This document shows, one piece after another, positions 1 to 20,757 of a DNA stretch of 64,000 nt. The stretch is taken from positions 1 through 64,000 of the forward strand of contig NZ_JAKTNT010000014.1 of the NCBI RefSeq assembly GCF_022760925.1, in the 5' to 3' direction. Below the pieces are notes generated by a model. It saw only the letters and a list, made by a program, of their open reading frames with translations, did no database searches and had not been told where the DNA came from. The position numbers were made by a program, and so were the translations under genes. The DNA is from Thermus hydrothermalis (GTDB lineage: Bacteria > Deinococcota > Deinococci > Deinococcales > Thermaceae). The stretch's first letter is position 1. Each line of letters begins with the position of its first letter.

Positions 1-53
<53 letters not shown>

Positions 54-14895: not shown

Positions 14896-16122
14896 ATGCC
14901 GGGGATCGCCATCATCGGGGCGCAGTGGGGGGACGAGGGCAAGGGCAAGGTGGTGGACGCCTTGGCCCGGGACGCGGACTACGTGGTCCGCTACCAGGGC
15001 GGGGCCAACGCCGGGCACACCGTGGTGGCGGAGGGCCGGGTTTTCAAGCTCAACCTCCTGCCCTCCGGGGTCATCCACCCCCATGCGGTGAACGTCCTGG
15101 GGGACGGGATGGTCATAGACCCCTTCCGCTTCCAGGAAGAGCTGGAAGGCCTGCGGAAAGAAGGGTTTGACCCCAAGGTCCTGGTATCGGAAAGGGCCCA
15201 CCTGGTCCTACCCCACCACAAGTACGTGGAAAGCCGCCACAACTTCGTGGGCACCACGGGCCGGGGCATCGGCCCCGCCTACTCGGACCGGGCCAGGCGG
15301 GTGGGGATTAGGGCGGGGGACCTTTTGGACGAGGAGGTCTTGCGGGAGAGGGTGCGCCGCCTCCTCCACGAGAAGCCCAACTCCACCCGGGAGGCGGGCT
15401 GGGACACGGAGGAGAAGGCCCTCGCCGACCTCCACCGCATGCGGGAGATCCTGAGGCCCTACATCGCCGACACCGGGGCCCTCCTGCGGGAGGCCTGGCG
15501 CAAGGGGAAGCGCCTCCTCTTTGAAGGGGCCCAGGCCACCCTCTTGGACCTGAACTACGGCACCTACCCCTACGTGACGAGCTCCCACCCCACGGTGGGG
15601 GGCATCCTGGTGGGCACCGGCCTCCCCCACAAGGCCATCACCAAGGTCTACGGGGTGGCCAAGGCCTACGCCACCCGGGTGGGGGAAGGCCCCTTCCCCA
15701 CGGAGATCCACGGGGAGTTGGCCCACCACCTGCGGGAAAAGGGGGGGGAGTACGGCACCACCACGGGCAGGCCCCGCAGGGTGGGCTGGCTGGACCTGGT
15801 GGCCCTGAAGTACGCCTGCGAGGTGAACGGCTTTGACGGCCTGGCCCTCACCAAGCTGGACGTGCTCTCGGGCCTGGAAAAGGTGAAGGTGGCCGTGGAG
15901 TACCTGGACGGGGCCCGCCCTGGGGAGGCGAGGCCGGAAGCGGTGCGCTACCTGGAGCTTCCCGGCTGGGGGGAGCTTTCGGGGGTCAAGGGGCGGGAGG
16001 ACCTCCCGGGAAGCCTCCTCCGCTACCTGGAGCTCATTGAGGAGCACACGGGGGTGCCCGTGGTCCTCTTCTCCACGAGCCCCCGCCGGGAGGATACCTT
16101 CGGGGCGGTGAGCTGGGTCTAG
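14896..16122 (+). CDS. purA: Adenylosuccinate synthetase
   Basis: 408 residues. Joins IMP and aspartate with GTP to form adenylosuccinate, the first committed step to AMP. The GTP/IMP loop GAQWGDEGKGK is at 8-18, YQGGANAGHTVV follows, and GTTTGRPRRVGW and TKLDVLSG are present near the C-terminus. It is shorter than E. coli PurA. The stop shares the palindrome CTAG with the stop of the convergent trpD. Confidence 0.97.
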   Translation: MPGIAIIGAQWGDEGKGKVVDALARDADYVVRYQGGANAGHTVVAEGRVFKLNLLPSGVIHPHAVNVLGDGMVIDPFRFQEELEGLRKEGFDPKVLVSERAHLVLPHHKYVESRHNFVGTTGRGIGPAYSDRARRVGIRAGDLLDEEVLRERVRRLLHEKPNSTREAGWDTEEKALADLHRMREILRPYIADTGALLREAWRKGKRLLFEGAQATLLDLNYGTYPYVTSSHPTVGGILVGTGLPHKAITKVYGVAKAYATRVGEGPFPTEIHGELAHHLREKGGEYGTTTGRPRRVGWLDLVALKYACEVNGFDGLALTKLDVLSGLEKVKVAVEYLDGARPGEARPEAVRYLELPGWGELSGVKGREDLPGSLLRYLELIEEHTGVPVVLFSTSPRREDTFGAVSWV

Positions 16123-17108
16123 GCCTTAAGGAAGGCCACGTACCGCTCCAGGAGGAGGTAGGCCTCGCCGCTTGCCAGGACCTCCTGGGCCCGGCGCACG
16201 CCCGCCTCGAGGCTCCCCACCGCGCCGGCGGCGTACAACCCCGCCCCCGCCGCTAGGGCCACCGCCTGGGCCGCAGGGCCCCTTTCCTCCCCCTTCAGGA
16301 GGCGCCGGGCCCGCTCGGCGTTCTCCTTGGGGGTGCCCCCCTTGAGGGCCTCGAGGGGGGCCCGCTCCAAGCCCACCGCCTCCGGGGTGAGGGTGTAGAC
16401 CCCCTTCCCCACCTCCGCCACCCGGTTCTCCCCGAGGACGAGCTCGTCCGCCCCTTCCCCGTGCACCACGAGCCCCCGGGCCCCAAGCCGCTCCAAGGCC
16501 TCGGCCATGGGGGAAAGCCACCTTTCGCTATAGACCCCGAGGACGTAGGCCTCCGCCCCGGCGGGGTTGGTGAGGGGGCCCAAGAGGTTGAAGACAGTGC
16601 GGATGCCAAGCTCCGCCCGCACCGGGGCCACGTGGCGCATGGCGGGGTGGAAGACCCGGGCGAAGAGGAAGCCGAAGCCTAAGGCCTCTATGGCCTCCCC
16701 CACCCTTTCGGGCGGGGCCTCCAGGTCCACCCCCAAGGCCTCCAAGAGGTCGGCGCTCCCCGCCTGGGAGCTCGCCGCCCGGTTCCCGTGCTTGGCCACC
16801 GCCACCCCCCCCGCCGCCGCCACCAGGGCGGCCAGGGTGGAGAGGTTCAAGAGCCCCTTGTGGTCCCCCCCGGTGCCCACGATGTCCAGAAGGGGCCTCC
16901 GGCCCACCCTCAAGGGCCTCGCCGCCTCCCGCATGGCCCGGGCCATAGCGGCGATCTCGTGGGGCCTTTCCCCCCTTAGGGCCATGGCGGTGAGCACCCC
17001 CGCCGCCCGCACCGGGGAAACCTCCCCCCGCATCAGGGCCTGCATGAGGCGATAGGCCTCCTCCTCCTCCAACACCTCGCCCAGAAGCGCCTTCCGCACT
17101 ACTTCCAT
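16119..17108 (-). CDS. trpD: Anthranilate phosphoribosyltransferase
   Basis: 329 residues. Transfers phosphoribose from PRPP to anthranilate, the second step of tryptophan synthesis. The PRPP motif DIVGTGGDHKGLLNLST (about 74-90) and KHGNRAASSQAGSADLLEALG (about 103-123) are diagnostic. It is the last gene of trpE-trpG-trpD, overlapping trpG by 10 bp, and is convergent with purA with a 4-bp overlap. Confidence 0.97.
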   Translation of the reverse strand: MEVVRKALLGEVLEEEEAYRLMQALMRGEVSPVRAAGVLTAMALRGERPHEIAAMARAMREAARPLRVGRRPLLDIVGTGGDHKGLLNLSTLAALVAAAGGVAVAKHGNRAASSQAGSADLLEALGVDLEAPPERVGEAIEALGFGFLFARVFHPAMRHVAPVRAELGIRTVFNLLGPLTNPAGAEAYVLGVYSERWLSPMAEALERLGARGLVVHGEGADELVLGENRVAEVGKGVYTLTPEAVGLERAPLEALKGGTPKENAERARRLLKGEERGPAAQAVALAAGAGLYAAGAVGSLEAGVRRAQEVLASGEAYLLLERYVAFLKA

Positions 17109-17677
17109 GGGTCCTCCAAAAAGTTCTTGAGGATGAGTTTACCCGCCTCGGTGAGGTAGCTTTCCGGGTGAAACTGCACCCCGTGGGTGGGGTAGGCCCG
17201 GTGCCGAAAGCCCATCACCGTGCGCCCCCCCGCCTCCTCCACCCAGGCGTTCACCCGAAGCTCCTCGGGCACCTCCACCACTACCAGGGAGTGGTAGCGG
17301 GTGGCGGGGAAGGGGCTATGGAGCCCCCGGAAGACCCCGGTGCCGTCGTGGTGGATCTCGCTCACCTTGCCGTGCATGATGAGGGGAGCCGGCACCACCT
17401 TCCCCCCGAAGGCCATGCCGATGGCCTGGTGGCCCAGGCAGACCCCGAGGATGGGGTAGCGGGGGGCGTAGCGGGCGATGAGGGGCAGGGAAAGCCCCGC
17501 CTCCAACGGGGTGCAGGGCCCGGGGCTAATCAGGATGCGGTCCGGGTCCAGGGCCTCCACGTCCTCGAGGGCGAACTGGTCGTTCCGCCAGACCACGGGG
17601 CTCGCCCCAAGCTCCCCCAGGTACTGCACCAGGTTGTAGGTGAAGCTATCGTAGTTGTCCACCACCAAAACCCGCAT
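17099..17677 (-). CDS. trpG: Anthranilate synthase component II (glutamine amidotransferase)
   Basis: 192 residues, class-I glutamine amidotransferase. Nucleophile Cys in LGVCLGHQAIG (about residue 79), His and Glu in GVQFHPESYLTEAGK. It supplies ammonia to TrpE. It starts directly after the trpE stop. PabA-type dual use for folate synthesis is possible, since a separate pabA is not seen in this window. Confidence 0.97.
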   Translation of the reverse strand: MRVLVVDNYDSFTYNLVQYLGELGASPVVWRNDQFALEDVEALDPDRILISPGPCTPLEAGLSLPLIARYAPRYPILGVCLGHQAIGMAFGGKVVPAPLIMHGKVSEIHHDGTGVFRGLHSPFPATRYHSLVVVEVPEELRVNAWVEEAGGRTVMGFRHRAYPTHGVQFHPESYLTEAGKLILKNFLEDPWK

Positions 17678-19066
17678 CTAAAGCCCCTCCTCCGCCATCT
17701 CCACCGCTTTCAATAGCGCCTTGGCCTTGTTCAGGCACTCCTGGTACTCCCTCTCCGGCACGGAATCCGCCACGATCCCCGCCCCCGCCTGCACGTGCAT
17801 CCGCCCGTGGGCGATGACGAAGGTGCGCAAGGTGAGGGCCACGTCCAAGACCCCATCGTAGGCCAGATAGCCGAAACTCCCCCCGTAGGGCCCCCGGCGG
17901 TGGGGTTCCAGTTCCTCAATGATCTCCATGGCCCTAATCTTGGGGGCCCCGGAAACCGTGCCCATGGGGAGGACGCTGGCCAGGGCGTCCAAGGGGGTCT
18001 TCCCCTCCGCCAAGACCCCCTCCACCGTGGACACCAGGTGCATCACGTGGGAGTAATACTCCACGTGCAAAGGCTCCACCACCCGCACGCTGCCAAAGGC
18101 CGCCACCCGGCCGATGTCGTTGCGGGAAAGGTCCAGAAGCATCACGTGCTCCGCCCGCTCCTTTTCGTCCTGTAGAAGCTCCTCCGCAAGCCGCCGGTCC
18201 TCCTCCTCGTCCCTGCCCCGGGGCCGGGTGCCGGCGATGGGCCGGGTCACCACCTTGCGGCCATCGGAGCGCAGGAGGCTTTCGGGGCTGGCGGAAACCA
18301 GAACCACCTCCCCCAGGTCCAGATAGCCCATGTAGGGGCTTGGGTTCACGCTCCTCAGGGCCCGGTAGAGGGCAAAGGGGTGGACGGTAAGGGGGGAGGA
18401 AAGCCGTAGGGAGAGGACCACCTGGAAGATATCCCCGGCCCGGATGTACTCCAGAGCCTGCCCCACCGCCTCTAGGTACGCCGCCTCCGTCATGTCCGCC
18501 TGGAACCGGGCCCGCCCCCCGGGCCTTTCCCCCGGGACCCCGGGCAAGGGCCCCTTAAGCCGCCCCTCGGCCCAGGCTAGGCGGGCCTCCGCCTCCTCGG
18601 GGTCCACCCCCGGGGCCACCAGGTGGAGGAGGTTTTTCAGGTGGTCAAAGACCGCCACCACCTCGGGCTCCACGAAGAGGAGGTCGGGCAGGCCCAGGTC
18701 GTCGGGCTTGAGGGCGGGAAGGCGCTCGTAGTAGCGGATGAGGTCGTAGGCGGCGTACCCCACCACCCCCCCGAAGAAGGGGGGAAGGTCCGGGTGGCGC
18801 TCCAGGGGGGCGTGCACCGCCTCGTAGAGGGTGCGCAAGGGGTCTCGGGTGGGCAAGGGCTTCCCGTTTACGGTAAAGACCCCGTCCTTCAGGCGGAAGG
18901 TGCGCCTCGCCCCTACCCCCACGATGGAGAAGCGGCTTTGCCGCCCCCGTTCCACGGACTCCAGGAGGAAGCTCACCGGGGCCTTCTCGGCGAGCTTGAG
19001 GTAGGCGGTCACGGGGGTTTCCAGGTCGGCGAGCAGGGTTTTGCGAAAGGGCCTTAGGGTCTCCAT
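17678..19066 (-). CDS. trpE: Anthranilate synthase component I
   Basis: 462 residues. Converts chorismate plus ammonia to anthranilate and pyruvate. N-terminal regulatory segment with LLES-type tryptophan-feedback motif (FLLESVERGRQSRFS), then the chorismate-binding core with TRPIAGTRPRG, the ERAEHVMLLDLSRNDIGRV motif and TVSGAPKIRAMEIIEELEP. A ribosome-binding site (AGGAGGT) precedes ATG 19066. Transcription is preceded by the attenuator and leader peptide described at 19079-19165. Confidence 0.97.
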   Translation of the reverse strand: METLRPFRKTLLADLETPVTAYLKLAEKAPVSFLLESVERGRQSRFSIVGVGARRTFRLKDGVFTVNGKPLPTRDPLRTLYEAVHAPLERHPDLPPFFGGVVGYAAYDLIRYYERLPALKPDDLGLPDLLFVEPEVVAVFDHLKNLLHLVAPGVDPEEAEARLAWAEGRLKGPLPGVPGERPGGRARFQADMTEAAYLEAVGQALEYIRAGDIFQVVLSLRLSSPLTVHPFALYRALRSVNPSPYMGYLDLGEVVLVSASPESLLRSDGRKVVTRPIAGTRPRGRDEEEDRRLAEELLQDEKERAEHVMLLDLSRNDIGRVAAFGSVRVVEPLHVEYYSHVMHLVSTVEGVLAEGKTPLDALASVLPMGTVSGAPKIRAMEIIEELEPHRRGPYGGSFGYLAYDGVLDVALTLRTFVIAHGRMHVQAGAGIVADSVPEREYQECLNKAKALLKAVEMAEEGL

Positions 19067-19078
19067 CCCACCTCCTAC

Positions 19079-19106
19079 AAAAAGCCCCCCGGGTGTACCC
19101 CGGGGG
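19079..19106 (-). terminator. trp attenuator (intrinsic terminator in trpE leader)
   Basis: Minus strand: an 8-bp G+C stem (19099-19106 with 19086-19093, 5-nt loop) followed by GCTTTTTG. It lies between the leader peptide and trpE. An upstream CCCCGGGG (19121-19128) can pair with the first half of this stem, giving a competing antiterminator. Confidence 0.8.
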
Positions 19107-19129
19107 AAAGACCGCCTCCGCCCCGGGGC

Positions 19130-19165
19130 CTAGCCGGGCCACCAGAGGACGGAGGGAAGGGTCAT
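19130..19165 (-). CDS. trpL: trp operon leader peptide (MTLPSVLWWPG)
   Basis: An 11-codon reading frame, ATG at 19165 and TAG at 19132-19130, contains two adjacent Trp codons (19139-19144). It lies between the promoter and the attenuator of trpE, the classical arrangement for tryptophan-controlled attenuation. The ATG is 6 nt after the TATCCT -10, so it is probably translated from a leaderless 5' end, with no Shine-Dalgarno needed. Reading through to the stop would leave segment 2 free only briefly; stalling at Trp codons would favour the antiterminator. Sequence is seen; the mechanism is inferred from the enteric paradigm. Confidence 0.8.
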   Translation of the reverse strand: MTLPSVLWWPG

Positions 19166-19171
19166 GCCCCA

Positions 19172-19201
19172 AGGATAGCCCAAAGGGCCCCTTGGGGTCT
19201 A
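19172..19201 (-). promoter_or_regulatory. trp operon promoter
   Basis: Minus strand: TAGACC (19196-19201), 18 bp, TATCCT (19172-19177). Predicted start of transcription coincides with the leader-peptide ATG at 19165. Confidence 0.6.
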
Positions 19202-19206
19202 GGGGG

Positions 19207-20757
19207 CTAGAAGCGCTCGGCCACCGTCTTCATCTGCAGGAAGTGGAGGAGGTAATCGGGCCCCCCGGCCTTGGTGTCCGTGCCCGAGAGGTTGAAGCCG
19301 CCGAAGGGCTGCACCCCCACCAGGGCCCCCGTGATCTTGCGGTTGAGGTAGAGGTTCCCCACGTGGAACTCCCGCCTGGCCCTTTCCAGGTGCTCCCGCT
19401 TGCGGGAGTAGACCCCGCCCGTGAGGCCGTAGACGGTATCGTTCGCCACCTCCAGGGCCTCGCCGAAGTCCTTCACCCGGATCACGGAGAGCACCGGGCC
19501 GAAGATCTCCTCCTGGGCGATCCTGGCCTTGGGCGGCACCTCGGTGAAGACCGTGGGGGCGATGAAGTAGCCCTCCCCCTCCAGGCGCTTACCCCCGAGG
19601 ACGAGCTGGCCTTCCCCCTTGCCGATTTCAATGTAGGAAAGGATTTTCTCCTCCTGGGCCTTGGAGGCCACGGGGCCGAGGTCGGGGTTCTCCTCCGCCG
19701 GGCCCACCACCAAGCGGCTCGCCCGCGCCAAGACCCGCTCCATCAAAGGCTCAAAGGCCTTCTCCGTGACGATGAGGCGGCTTGCCGCCGAGCACTTCTG
19801 CCCCTGGAAGCCGTAGGCGGAAACCAGGATGCCCTCCGTGGCCGCCTCCAGGTCGGCGGTCTCGTCCACGATGATGGCGTCCTTGCCGCCGAGCTCCAGG
19901 AAGACCCGCTTGATCCACCGCTGCCCAGGGGCCAGTTTGGCCGCCGCCTCCTGGATCCAAAGCCCCACCTCGAGGCTCCCCGTGAAGTTGATGAACCGGG
20001 TCCTGGGGTGCTCCACCAGGTAGGCCCCCACCTCCTTCCCTTCCCCGGGCAGGAAGTTCACCACCCCCGGGGGGAAGCCCGCCTCGTGGAAGATCTCAAA
20101 GACCTTGGCGGCGATGACCACGGTGTCCTCGGCGGGCTTGGCCACCACGGTGTTCCCCACCGCCACGGGCCCGGCGATCATCCCGGTGAAGATGGCGATG
20201 GGGAAGTTCCAGGGGGCGATGACCACCCCGGCCCCCAAGGGGATGTAGAAGCTCTCGTTGTCCTCCCCAGGGTAGGGCACCACCTCCACGGAGGGGTACT
20301 TGTACTTGAGGGCCTGGCGGGCGTAGTACTCCAGGAAGTCAATGGCCTCCGCCACCTCGGCGCTGGCCTCCACCCAGTTCTTGCCGATCTCGTAGACCAA
20401 GGTGGCCTCCAGTTCCCGCCTGCGCCTTTTCATGAGGGCGGCGGCCTTGAGGAGGAGGCGGCTCCGGTCCTCCTGGGGCCAGTCCTTCCAGGCGCGGAAG
20501 GCCCGCCAGGCGGCCTCGAGGGCAGCCTCCGCCTCCGCCCGCCCCGCCTTGGCGGTGCTCCCCACCACCTCGCTCGGGGCCGAGGGGTTTAGGGAGAGGA
20601 TCCTCGCCGGGGTGTCCACCCAAGCCCCGTCAATGTAGAGGCCCCAGTGGCGGCCAAACTCGGCCCGGACCCGCTTTAGGGCCTCCTTCATCTCCCGCTT
20701 GGCTTCCTCGGTCTGGAAGGTTTCTATGGGTTGGTTGCGGAAAGGCTCCACCGTCAT
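19207..20757 (-). CDS. 1-pyrroline-5-carboxylate dehydrogenase
   Basis: 516 residues, aldehyde dehydrogenase superfamily. Oxidises glutamate semialdehyde (from P5C) to glutamate with NAD+. Catalytic Cys is in [12 protein letters not shown] and the general-base Glu in [15 protein letters not shown] and the [17 protein letters not shown]-terminal motif are typical of P5CDH. The length equals that of the known Thermus enzyme. It is 11 bp downstream of proline dehydrogenase with a good AGGAGG site, so proline becomes glutamate through both. Confidence 0.96.

Follow-up and report, generated by a model that had tools for sequence, protein, structure and literature searches.

A likely ribosome-mediated trp attenuator on a predicted leaderless mRNA in Thermus and its relatives

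The trpL leader of Escherichia coli controls transcription by ribosome-mediated attenuation, and leader-peptide systems of this kind have usually been described in Proteobacteria, Actinobacteria and Firmicutes. A survey from 2010 stated that, to its authors' knowledge, such systems had been demonstrated in no phyla other than Proteobacteria and Actinobacteria until the survey itself added cases from Firmicutes (PMC2965389). Leaderless versions have been described as well. The 5' end of the Sinorhizobium meliloti trpL/rnTrpL RNA is the ATG of trpL, and this leaderless leader attenuates transcription before trpE(G) (PMC7298713). Streptomyces lividans trpL1 and trpL2 are leaderless Trp leader peptides, MFAHSTRNWWWTAHPAAH before trpE (PMC8079986). 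For Deinococcus-Thermus, the passages of one study that treat -10 boxes adjoining ORFs present leaderless expression from them as common; these passages concern ordinary ORFs and discuss no attenuator leader (PMC12340547). A 2005 paper contains a database-predicted attenuator before aroA-tyrA of Thermus thermophilus (PMC1173090). We found no description of a Thermus trp leader in the open full-text literature. In 1988, Sato et al. reportedly noted an attenuator-like structure upstream of trpE (trpE/trpG) in T. thermophilus HB8.

We analyzed a window of 64,000 nt from Thermus hydrothermalis (positions 1 to 64,000 of contig NZ_JAKTNT010000014.1). On its minus strand, a short leader lies between a gene for L-glutamate-gamma-semialdehyde dehydrogenase (19207-20757, upstream of the leader and on the same strand as trpE) and trpE-trpG-trpD. 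The three trp genes, all on the minus strand, encode anthranilate synthase component I (trpE, 17678..19066; TIGR00564, 524.9 bits against a cut-off of 517.7), anthranilate synthase component II (trpG, 17099..17677; TIGR00566, 237 bits) and anthranilate phosphoribosyltransferase (trpD, 16119..17108; TIGR01245, 367.2 bits), with trpD overlapping the end of trpG. The leader ATG (19165) and the trpE ATG (19066) are 99 nt apart. The original prediction, made from the letters of the window alone, had placed a promoter, a Trp-Trp ORF, an alternative pairing region and a terminator with a T-tract in this order before trpE; each was found at the coordinates it gave, and the minus strand, which it had left unstated, can now be added.

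The locus has in common with E. coli trpL the tandem Trp codons shortly before the stop codon, RNA segments 1-4, an intrinsic terminator and a position in control of trpE. It differs in having no Shine-Dalgarno (SD) site and a predicted 5' UTR of 0-3 nt, in the length of the predicted leader RNA (~87 nt here, ~140 in E. coli) and in having almost no spacer between the stop codon and segment 2. With S. meliloti it shares a leaderless Trp leader peptide, the 5' end being predicted in Thermus, and attenuation upstream of trpE, whereas the S. meliloti peptide has 14 aa, belongs to a proteobacterium and has reported trans functions (PMC7298713). With S. lividans it shares leaderless Trp leader peptides, MFAHSTRNWWWTAHPAAH before trpE, the leaderless start again being predicted in Thermus; that organism is an actinobacterium with a different peptide and a monocistronic trpE (PMC8079986). 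The original contrast with the SD-bearing enteric leader therefore holds, but a leaderless trp leader is not in itself without precedent (PMC7298713, PMC8079986). Because the mechanism is classical and its leaderless form has precedents, the system is of a known kind; what is new, as far as we could check, is its conservation across the order, the covariation, the geometry, and the same design before ilvB, homocitrate synthase and Meiothermus trpB. Conserved tandem Trp codons, covariation of two mutually exclusive helices and a geometry kept despite sequence change support Trp attenuation, and we consider it very likely that the leader controls the trpEGD operon by ribosome-mediated transcription attenuation on a leaderless leader mRNA.

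The leader ORF (19130..19165, minus strand; ATGACCCTTCCCTCCGTCCTCTGGTGGCCCGGCTAG) encodes the 11-aa peptide MTLPSVLWWPG* (asterisks denote stop codons), with tandem Trp codons TGGTGG at 19144-19139 and a TAG stop at 19132-19130. ORFs ending in WWPG* or WWWPG* precede trpE in Thermus (26 genomes), in Meiothermus-type genera (L007, L008) and in family f4, probably the Marinithermus/Oceanithermus family. Thermus exceptions to WWPG* were WWSG* (L086), the loss of one W (L098) and, in a genus-g5 relative, WWRPG* (L109). The alignment of other Thermus trpE leaders that had been proposed as a check showed that the WW is kept, and L098 was the one leader across f4 and family f1 (the Thermus/Meiothermus family) with a single W in place of WW or WWW. 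The TGG codons were retained while the preceding codons varied, as did the N-terminal residues of the peptide. The L098 leader, MNLTSLRPWPG* of one Thermus species, has its promoter and RNA arms intact and could serve as a natural experiment on whether a single UGG is enough.

The distribution of the leader was examined with a covariance model (leader R1, 69 positions), on which 26 of the leaders were trained, so that their scores are high by construction. In each of 61 genomes the model gave a single match of 51 bits or more; these were all 59 genomes of f1 and f4 in which trpE was detected and two drafts in which it was not; trpE itself was found in 102 of the 111 genomes of the class. The next best match anywhere scored 38 bits and lay before trpB in a Meiothermus-type genome. 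The leader of the present genome scored 75.8 bits, compared to 28.7 for its next best match. Conservation across genomes on this scale excludes chance. No WW leader was found within 330 nt of trpE in ten genomes of family f5, and families f2 and f3 have WW or WWW leaders of a different form (L142, L151, L153). The leader before trpE of one f2 genome (G028; L192), MLTRANGKGWPS*, is diverged and has a single Trp codon, a TACACT 7 nt upstream of its ATG and a CCCAG...CCTGGG pairing; judged by its sequence, it may indicate that the attenuator system reaches beyond f1 and f4.

The promoter adjoins the leader ORF. A -10 box, TATCCT (19172..19177, minus strand; extended form GGGCTATCCT), lies 18 nt after a -35-like hexamer, TAGACC (19196..19201, minus strand), and is separated from the leader ATG by the 6-nt gap TGGGGC (19166-19171, minus strand). 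A spacing of 17-18 nt and TAGAC/TGGAC were common to nearly all Thermus leaders and were not clear in L109. The -10 box of Thermus leaders reads TATCCT, TATTCT, TATCTT or TAAGGT and that of L109, a close relative of the genus, TATACT; the gap to the leader ATG is 6 nt in every case. Meiothermus-type promoters had the form TTGCA-N17/18-(CAGACT/TACACT), followed by mostly 8-9 nt to the start. Among 54 distinct promoters, the distance from the end of the -10 box to the start codon was 6 nt (24 promoters), 7 (9), 8 (3), 9 (15), 10 (1) or 11 (2), and thus 6-11 nt in all 54 and 6-9 nt in 51. One 11-nt case is L124, where a downstream GTG would give ~7 nt; the start codon used for L124 and L125 is probably the one before the true start, the downstream GTG fitting the promoter better. 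Since transcription from sigma-70-type promoters starts ~7 nt after the -10 box, the predicted start in this window is the A of the leader ATG (19165, minus strand), giving a 5' UTR of 0 nt in Thermus leaders and of 0-3 nt in most others, with ~2-3 nt in Meiothermus-type leaders. No conserved SD site precedes the leader ORF in the 54 promoters, in contrast to trpE, which has GGAGG (19071..19075, minus strand) before its ATG at 19066. The leader thus has the two features of leaderless mRNAs, a -10 box adjoining the start codon and no SD site. Both support the predicted leaderless start at this ATG, and from its sequence the leader is probably translated from a 5' end of 0-3 nt, in keeping with the -10 boxes beside start codons described in the relevant passages on Deinococcus-Thermus (PMC12340547). 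An inverted repeat, CCCCAAGGGGCCCTTTGGG, was observed between the -35 and -10 elements in this species (window 19179-19197); its absence from other Thermus makes an operator role improbable.

We consider it improbable that the same attenuator works without being truly leaderless, with the main transcript beginning tens of bases upstream and the leader ORF started internally without an SD site. By eye, there is no obvious terminator between the end of the dehydrogenase gene at 19207 and the trp promoter, and read-through from that gene would give some leadered transcripts; a few Meiothermus-type leaders also have GGAG, GAGG or AAGG 6-9 nt before the ATG. However, SD-like strings occur in a minority of leaders and differ even between close relatives, the gap of mostly 8-9 nt in Meiothermus-type promoters leaves hardly any UTR, and the distance from -10 box to ATG is kept in every lineage. 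This includes species in which the upstream gene has changed (L084, L009, L095, L098) while promoter, leader and terminator stay, so that the promoter belongs to the leader.

The leader RNA contains four segments, all read on the minus strand. Segment 1, the CCCGG within codons Pro10-Gly11 (19134..19138), pairs with segment 2, CCCCGGGG (19121..19128), through its CCGGG; segment 2 pairs alternatively with segment 3, CCCCCGGGG (19098..19106), to form the antiterminator; and segment 3 pairs alternatively with segment 4, ACCCGGGGG (19086..19094), the 3' arm of an intrinsic terminator whose T-tract, T5, lies at 19079..19083. As in trpL, the antiterminator 2:3 and the terminator 3:4 with its U-tract exclude each other and segment 1 pairs with segment 2. 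The predicted terminated RNA is ~87 nt (19165-19079). The original prediction had named the other parts of the attenuator correctly and overlooked segment 1, which changes together with its partner: the pair is CCTGG/CCAGG in L007, L124 and L140, and CCTAG/CTAGG in L115 and L117. Because the Pro-Gly codons change along with segment 2, the Trp codons appear to be kept for decoding and the Pro-Gly codons at least partly for the RNA.

Segments 2, 3 and 4 were located by pairing and T-tail in 51 distinct leaders, and segment 3 was complementary to both neighbours despite sequence drift. Segments 2/3/4 are CCCCGGGG throughout in many Thermus, CCCCAGGG/CCCTGGGG/CCCCGGGG in L007, CCCGGGGG/CCCTCGGG/CCCGGGGG in L121 and TCCAGGAC/CCCCTGGA/TCCGGGGG in L118; some Meiothermus leaders have a T-run after segment 3 too. 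Since plain MAFFT alignment loses the arm registers between lineages, pairs were counted on arms anchored in each sequence. Choosing the register per sequence to fit the pairing inflates the fraction paired, which was corrected by running the same search on shuffled leaders: the mean paired-arm score was 40.4, compared to 23.2 in dinucleotide-shuffled leaders (100 rounds, whose means had an SD of 0.68 and peaked at 25.1). L115 and L117 did not exceed their shuffles with the default search because the stop codon lies inside segment 2. Covariation was computed on 18 distinct arm sets that align without gaps. Helix 2:3 had double changes in 4 of 8 pairs and a covariation of 0.357 against 0.184 when shuffled (reached in 0/500), and helix 3:4 had double changes in 6 of 8 pairs and 0.482 against 0.256 (0/500). 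Both signals collapsed when the arms were slid by one column. The covariation supports the reading of the alternative pairing region at 19121-19128 and the terminator as an attenuator.

These results also bear on the nature of the sensor. There is very little chance that a protein or an RNA ligand (TRAP-like, T-box or riboswitch) is sensed in place of Trp codons, or that the hairpin does no more than terminate the dehydrogenase operon. The hairpin does lie between two same-strand operons and could stop read-through, but alternative pairing and leader ORF persist alongside the terminator in species with a different upstream gene. A TrpBP (TRAP) gene (PF02081) was found in 0/27 Thermus genomes with a positive Bacillus subtilis control, and no T-box, riboswitch or curated leader family reached its Rfam gathering score in the leader region. 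Nor does the leader fall into the Trp_leader family of Rfam, which had no match in this stretch up to E=5. All Rfam matches were weak and well under their gathering scores; the match on the leader itself, anti-hemB at 18.9 bits against a gathering score of 49.5, was taken as chance. Equally improbable is a role in trans, besides attenuation, for the 87-nt RNA or its peptide like that reported for S. meliloti rnTrpL/peTrpL: the predicted RNA is a small leaderless mRNA like theirs (PMC7298713), but the N-terminal half of the peptide is unconserved.

Returning to ribosome-mediated attenuation, the mean helix energies at 70 C over the 51 leaders were -9.9 kcal/mol for 2:3, -9.3 for 3:4 and -2.8 for 1:2, the last being short and weak at this temperature. 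As 2:3 and 3:4 are nearly equal, the outcome should depend on the order of synthesis and on ribosome position. In folding models without a ribosome, segment 2 of the full leader is taken up by leader sequence upstream of it and the terminator forms, while a ribosome at the first Trp codon does not clearly favour the antiterminator over the terminator at equilibrium. The switch would therefore need co-transcriptional (kinetic) folding, as attenuators generally do.

The leading edge of a ribosome lies 15 nt beyond the first base of the P site. With this value assumed, the edge stands at stop+3 when the last UGG occupies the A site and at stop+12 when the stop codon does. In 47 of 51 leaders, segment 2 begins at stop+2..5 and ends at stop+9..12; in the remaining 4 the Trp codons, stop and segment 2 are shifted together. 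On the same assumption, in all 51 leaders a ribosome waiting at the last Trp extends no further than roughly the opening bases of segment 2, and a ribosome at the stop hides either the whole segment or everything except its final base. In this window, 19128-19121 stays free during a stall at either Trp codon and is covered when the ribosome is at the stop, so that stalling would free segment 2 and arrival at the stop would mask it.

These data suggest the following model. RNA polymerase would start at or beside 19165, the first base of the leader ATG, and a ribosome, we infer, loads on the 5'-terminal AUG without an SD site. When Trp-tRNA is short, the ribosome would wait at UGG-UGG with its leading edge just short of segment 2, leaving this segment free to pair with 3 once 3 emerges; no terminator would form, and trpEGD would be transcribed. 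When Trp-tRNA is plentiful, the ribosome would reach the UAG, three codons past the last UGG, and cover segment 2, so that 3 would pair with 4 and transcription would end after ~87 nt. With no ribosome, the leader would tie up segment 2 and the terminator would form too. Such a system would make Trp attenuation old and conserved in a lineage of thermophiles that belongs neither to Proteobacteria nor to Actinobacteria or Firmicutes. It would also provide a small, naturally occurring setting in which to test how quickly ribosomes load on leaderless RNA behind RNA polymerase, with ~87 nt from start to terminator and growth near 70 C. Structural studies routinely use both RNA polymerase and ribosomes from Thermus.

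Several other genes, examined less thoroughly than trpE, are preceded by similar leaders. First, the ilvB leader of this genome (L162, G000:C4, -130), MRFALTLSLGLVLIVGPAGGRV*, begins 10 nt downstream of TATCCT, and a GC-rich hairpin with a T-run lies between it and ilvB; related leaders occur in 5/5 genomes examined (L161-L165), including Meiothermus-type and f4, and likely represent a near-leaderless Leu/Val/Ile attenuator. Second, the homocitrate synthase leader (L179, G000:C8, -122), MLARAKKLGRRGVG*, with an adjacent -10 box, a hairpin and a T-run, keeps its Lys-Lys in five genomes (L179-L183) and is likely a lysine attenuator of the same type. Third, trpB of Meiothermus-type genomes (L200-L215) has the leader MRPRTPRSYKRRHQRWWRG* or a similar one, e.g. 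MRIRTPRSYKWHHQRWWRG*, with tandem Trp codons. These leaders start ~6-9 nt after a -10 box, and most have a CTCGAGG...CCTCGAGTTTTT terminator (CTCGAGG/CCTCGAG) behind them; this is a candidate second Trp attenuator, serving trpB. Across trpE (WW), ilvB (LVLIV), homocitrate synthase (KK) and Meiothermus-type trpB (WW), the leaders start ~6-12 nt after the -10 box. On balance, we lean towards leaderless leader peptides being a general amino-acid attenuation device in Thermus and its relatives, in which case ribosome loading at the 5' end would set transcription-translation coupling in leaderless attenuators.

Upstream of trpB in f4 (L195-L199) and Thermus (L216-L221), the N-terminus MRxRTP(R/F)x(Y/F)KxxHxR is kept even in the absence of both WW and terminator; this exceeds the needs of a plain attenuator, and the peptide itself may act. 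In the present species, the trpB leader (L223, G000:C10:37295; L222) begins MRARTPFAFNKEARALPRP..., apparently out of frame relative to MRARTPFAFKRRHGRYRA in other Thermus, and looks broken. No attenuator was found upstream of DAHP synthase or trpS. The trpS gene (L175, L174), which follows a tRNA-like sequence, is itself apparently leaderless: 6 nt separate the end of a TACACT from its ATG.
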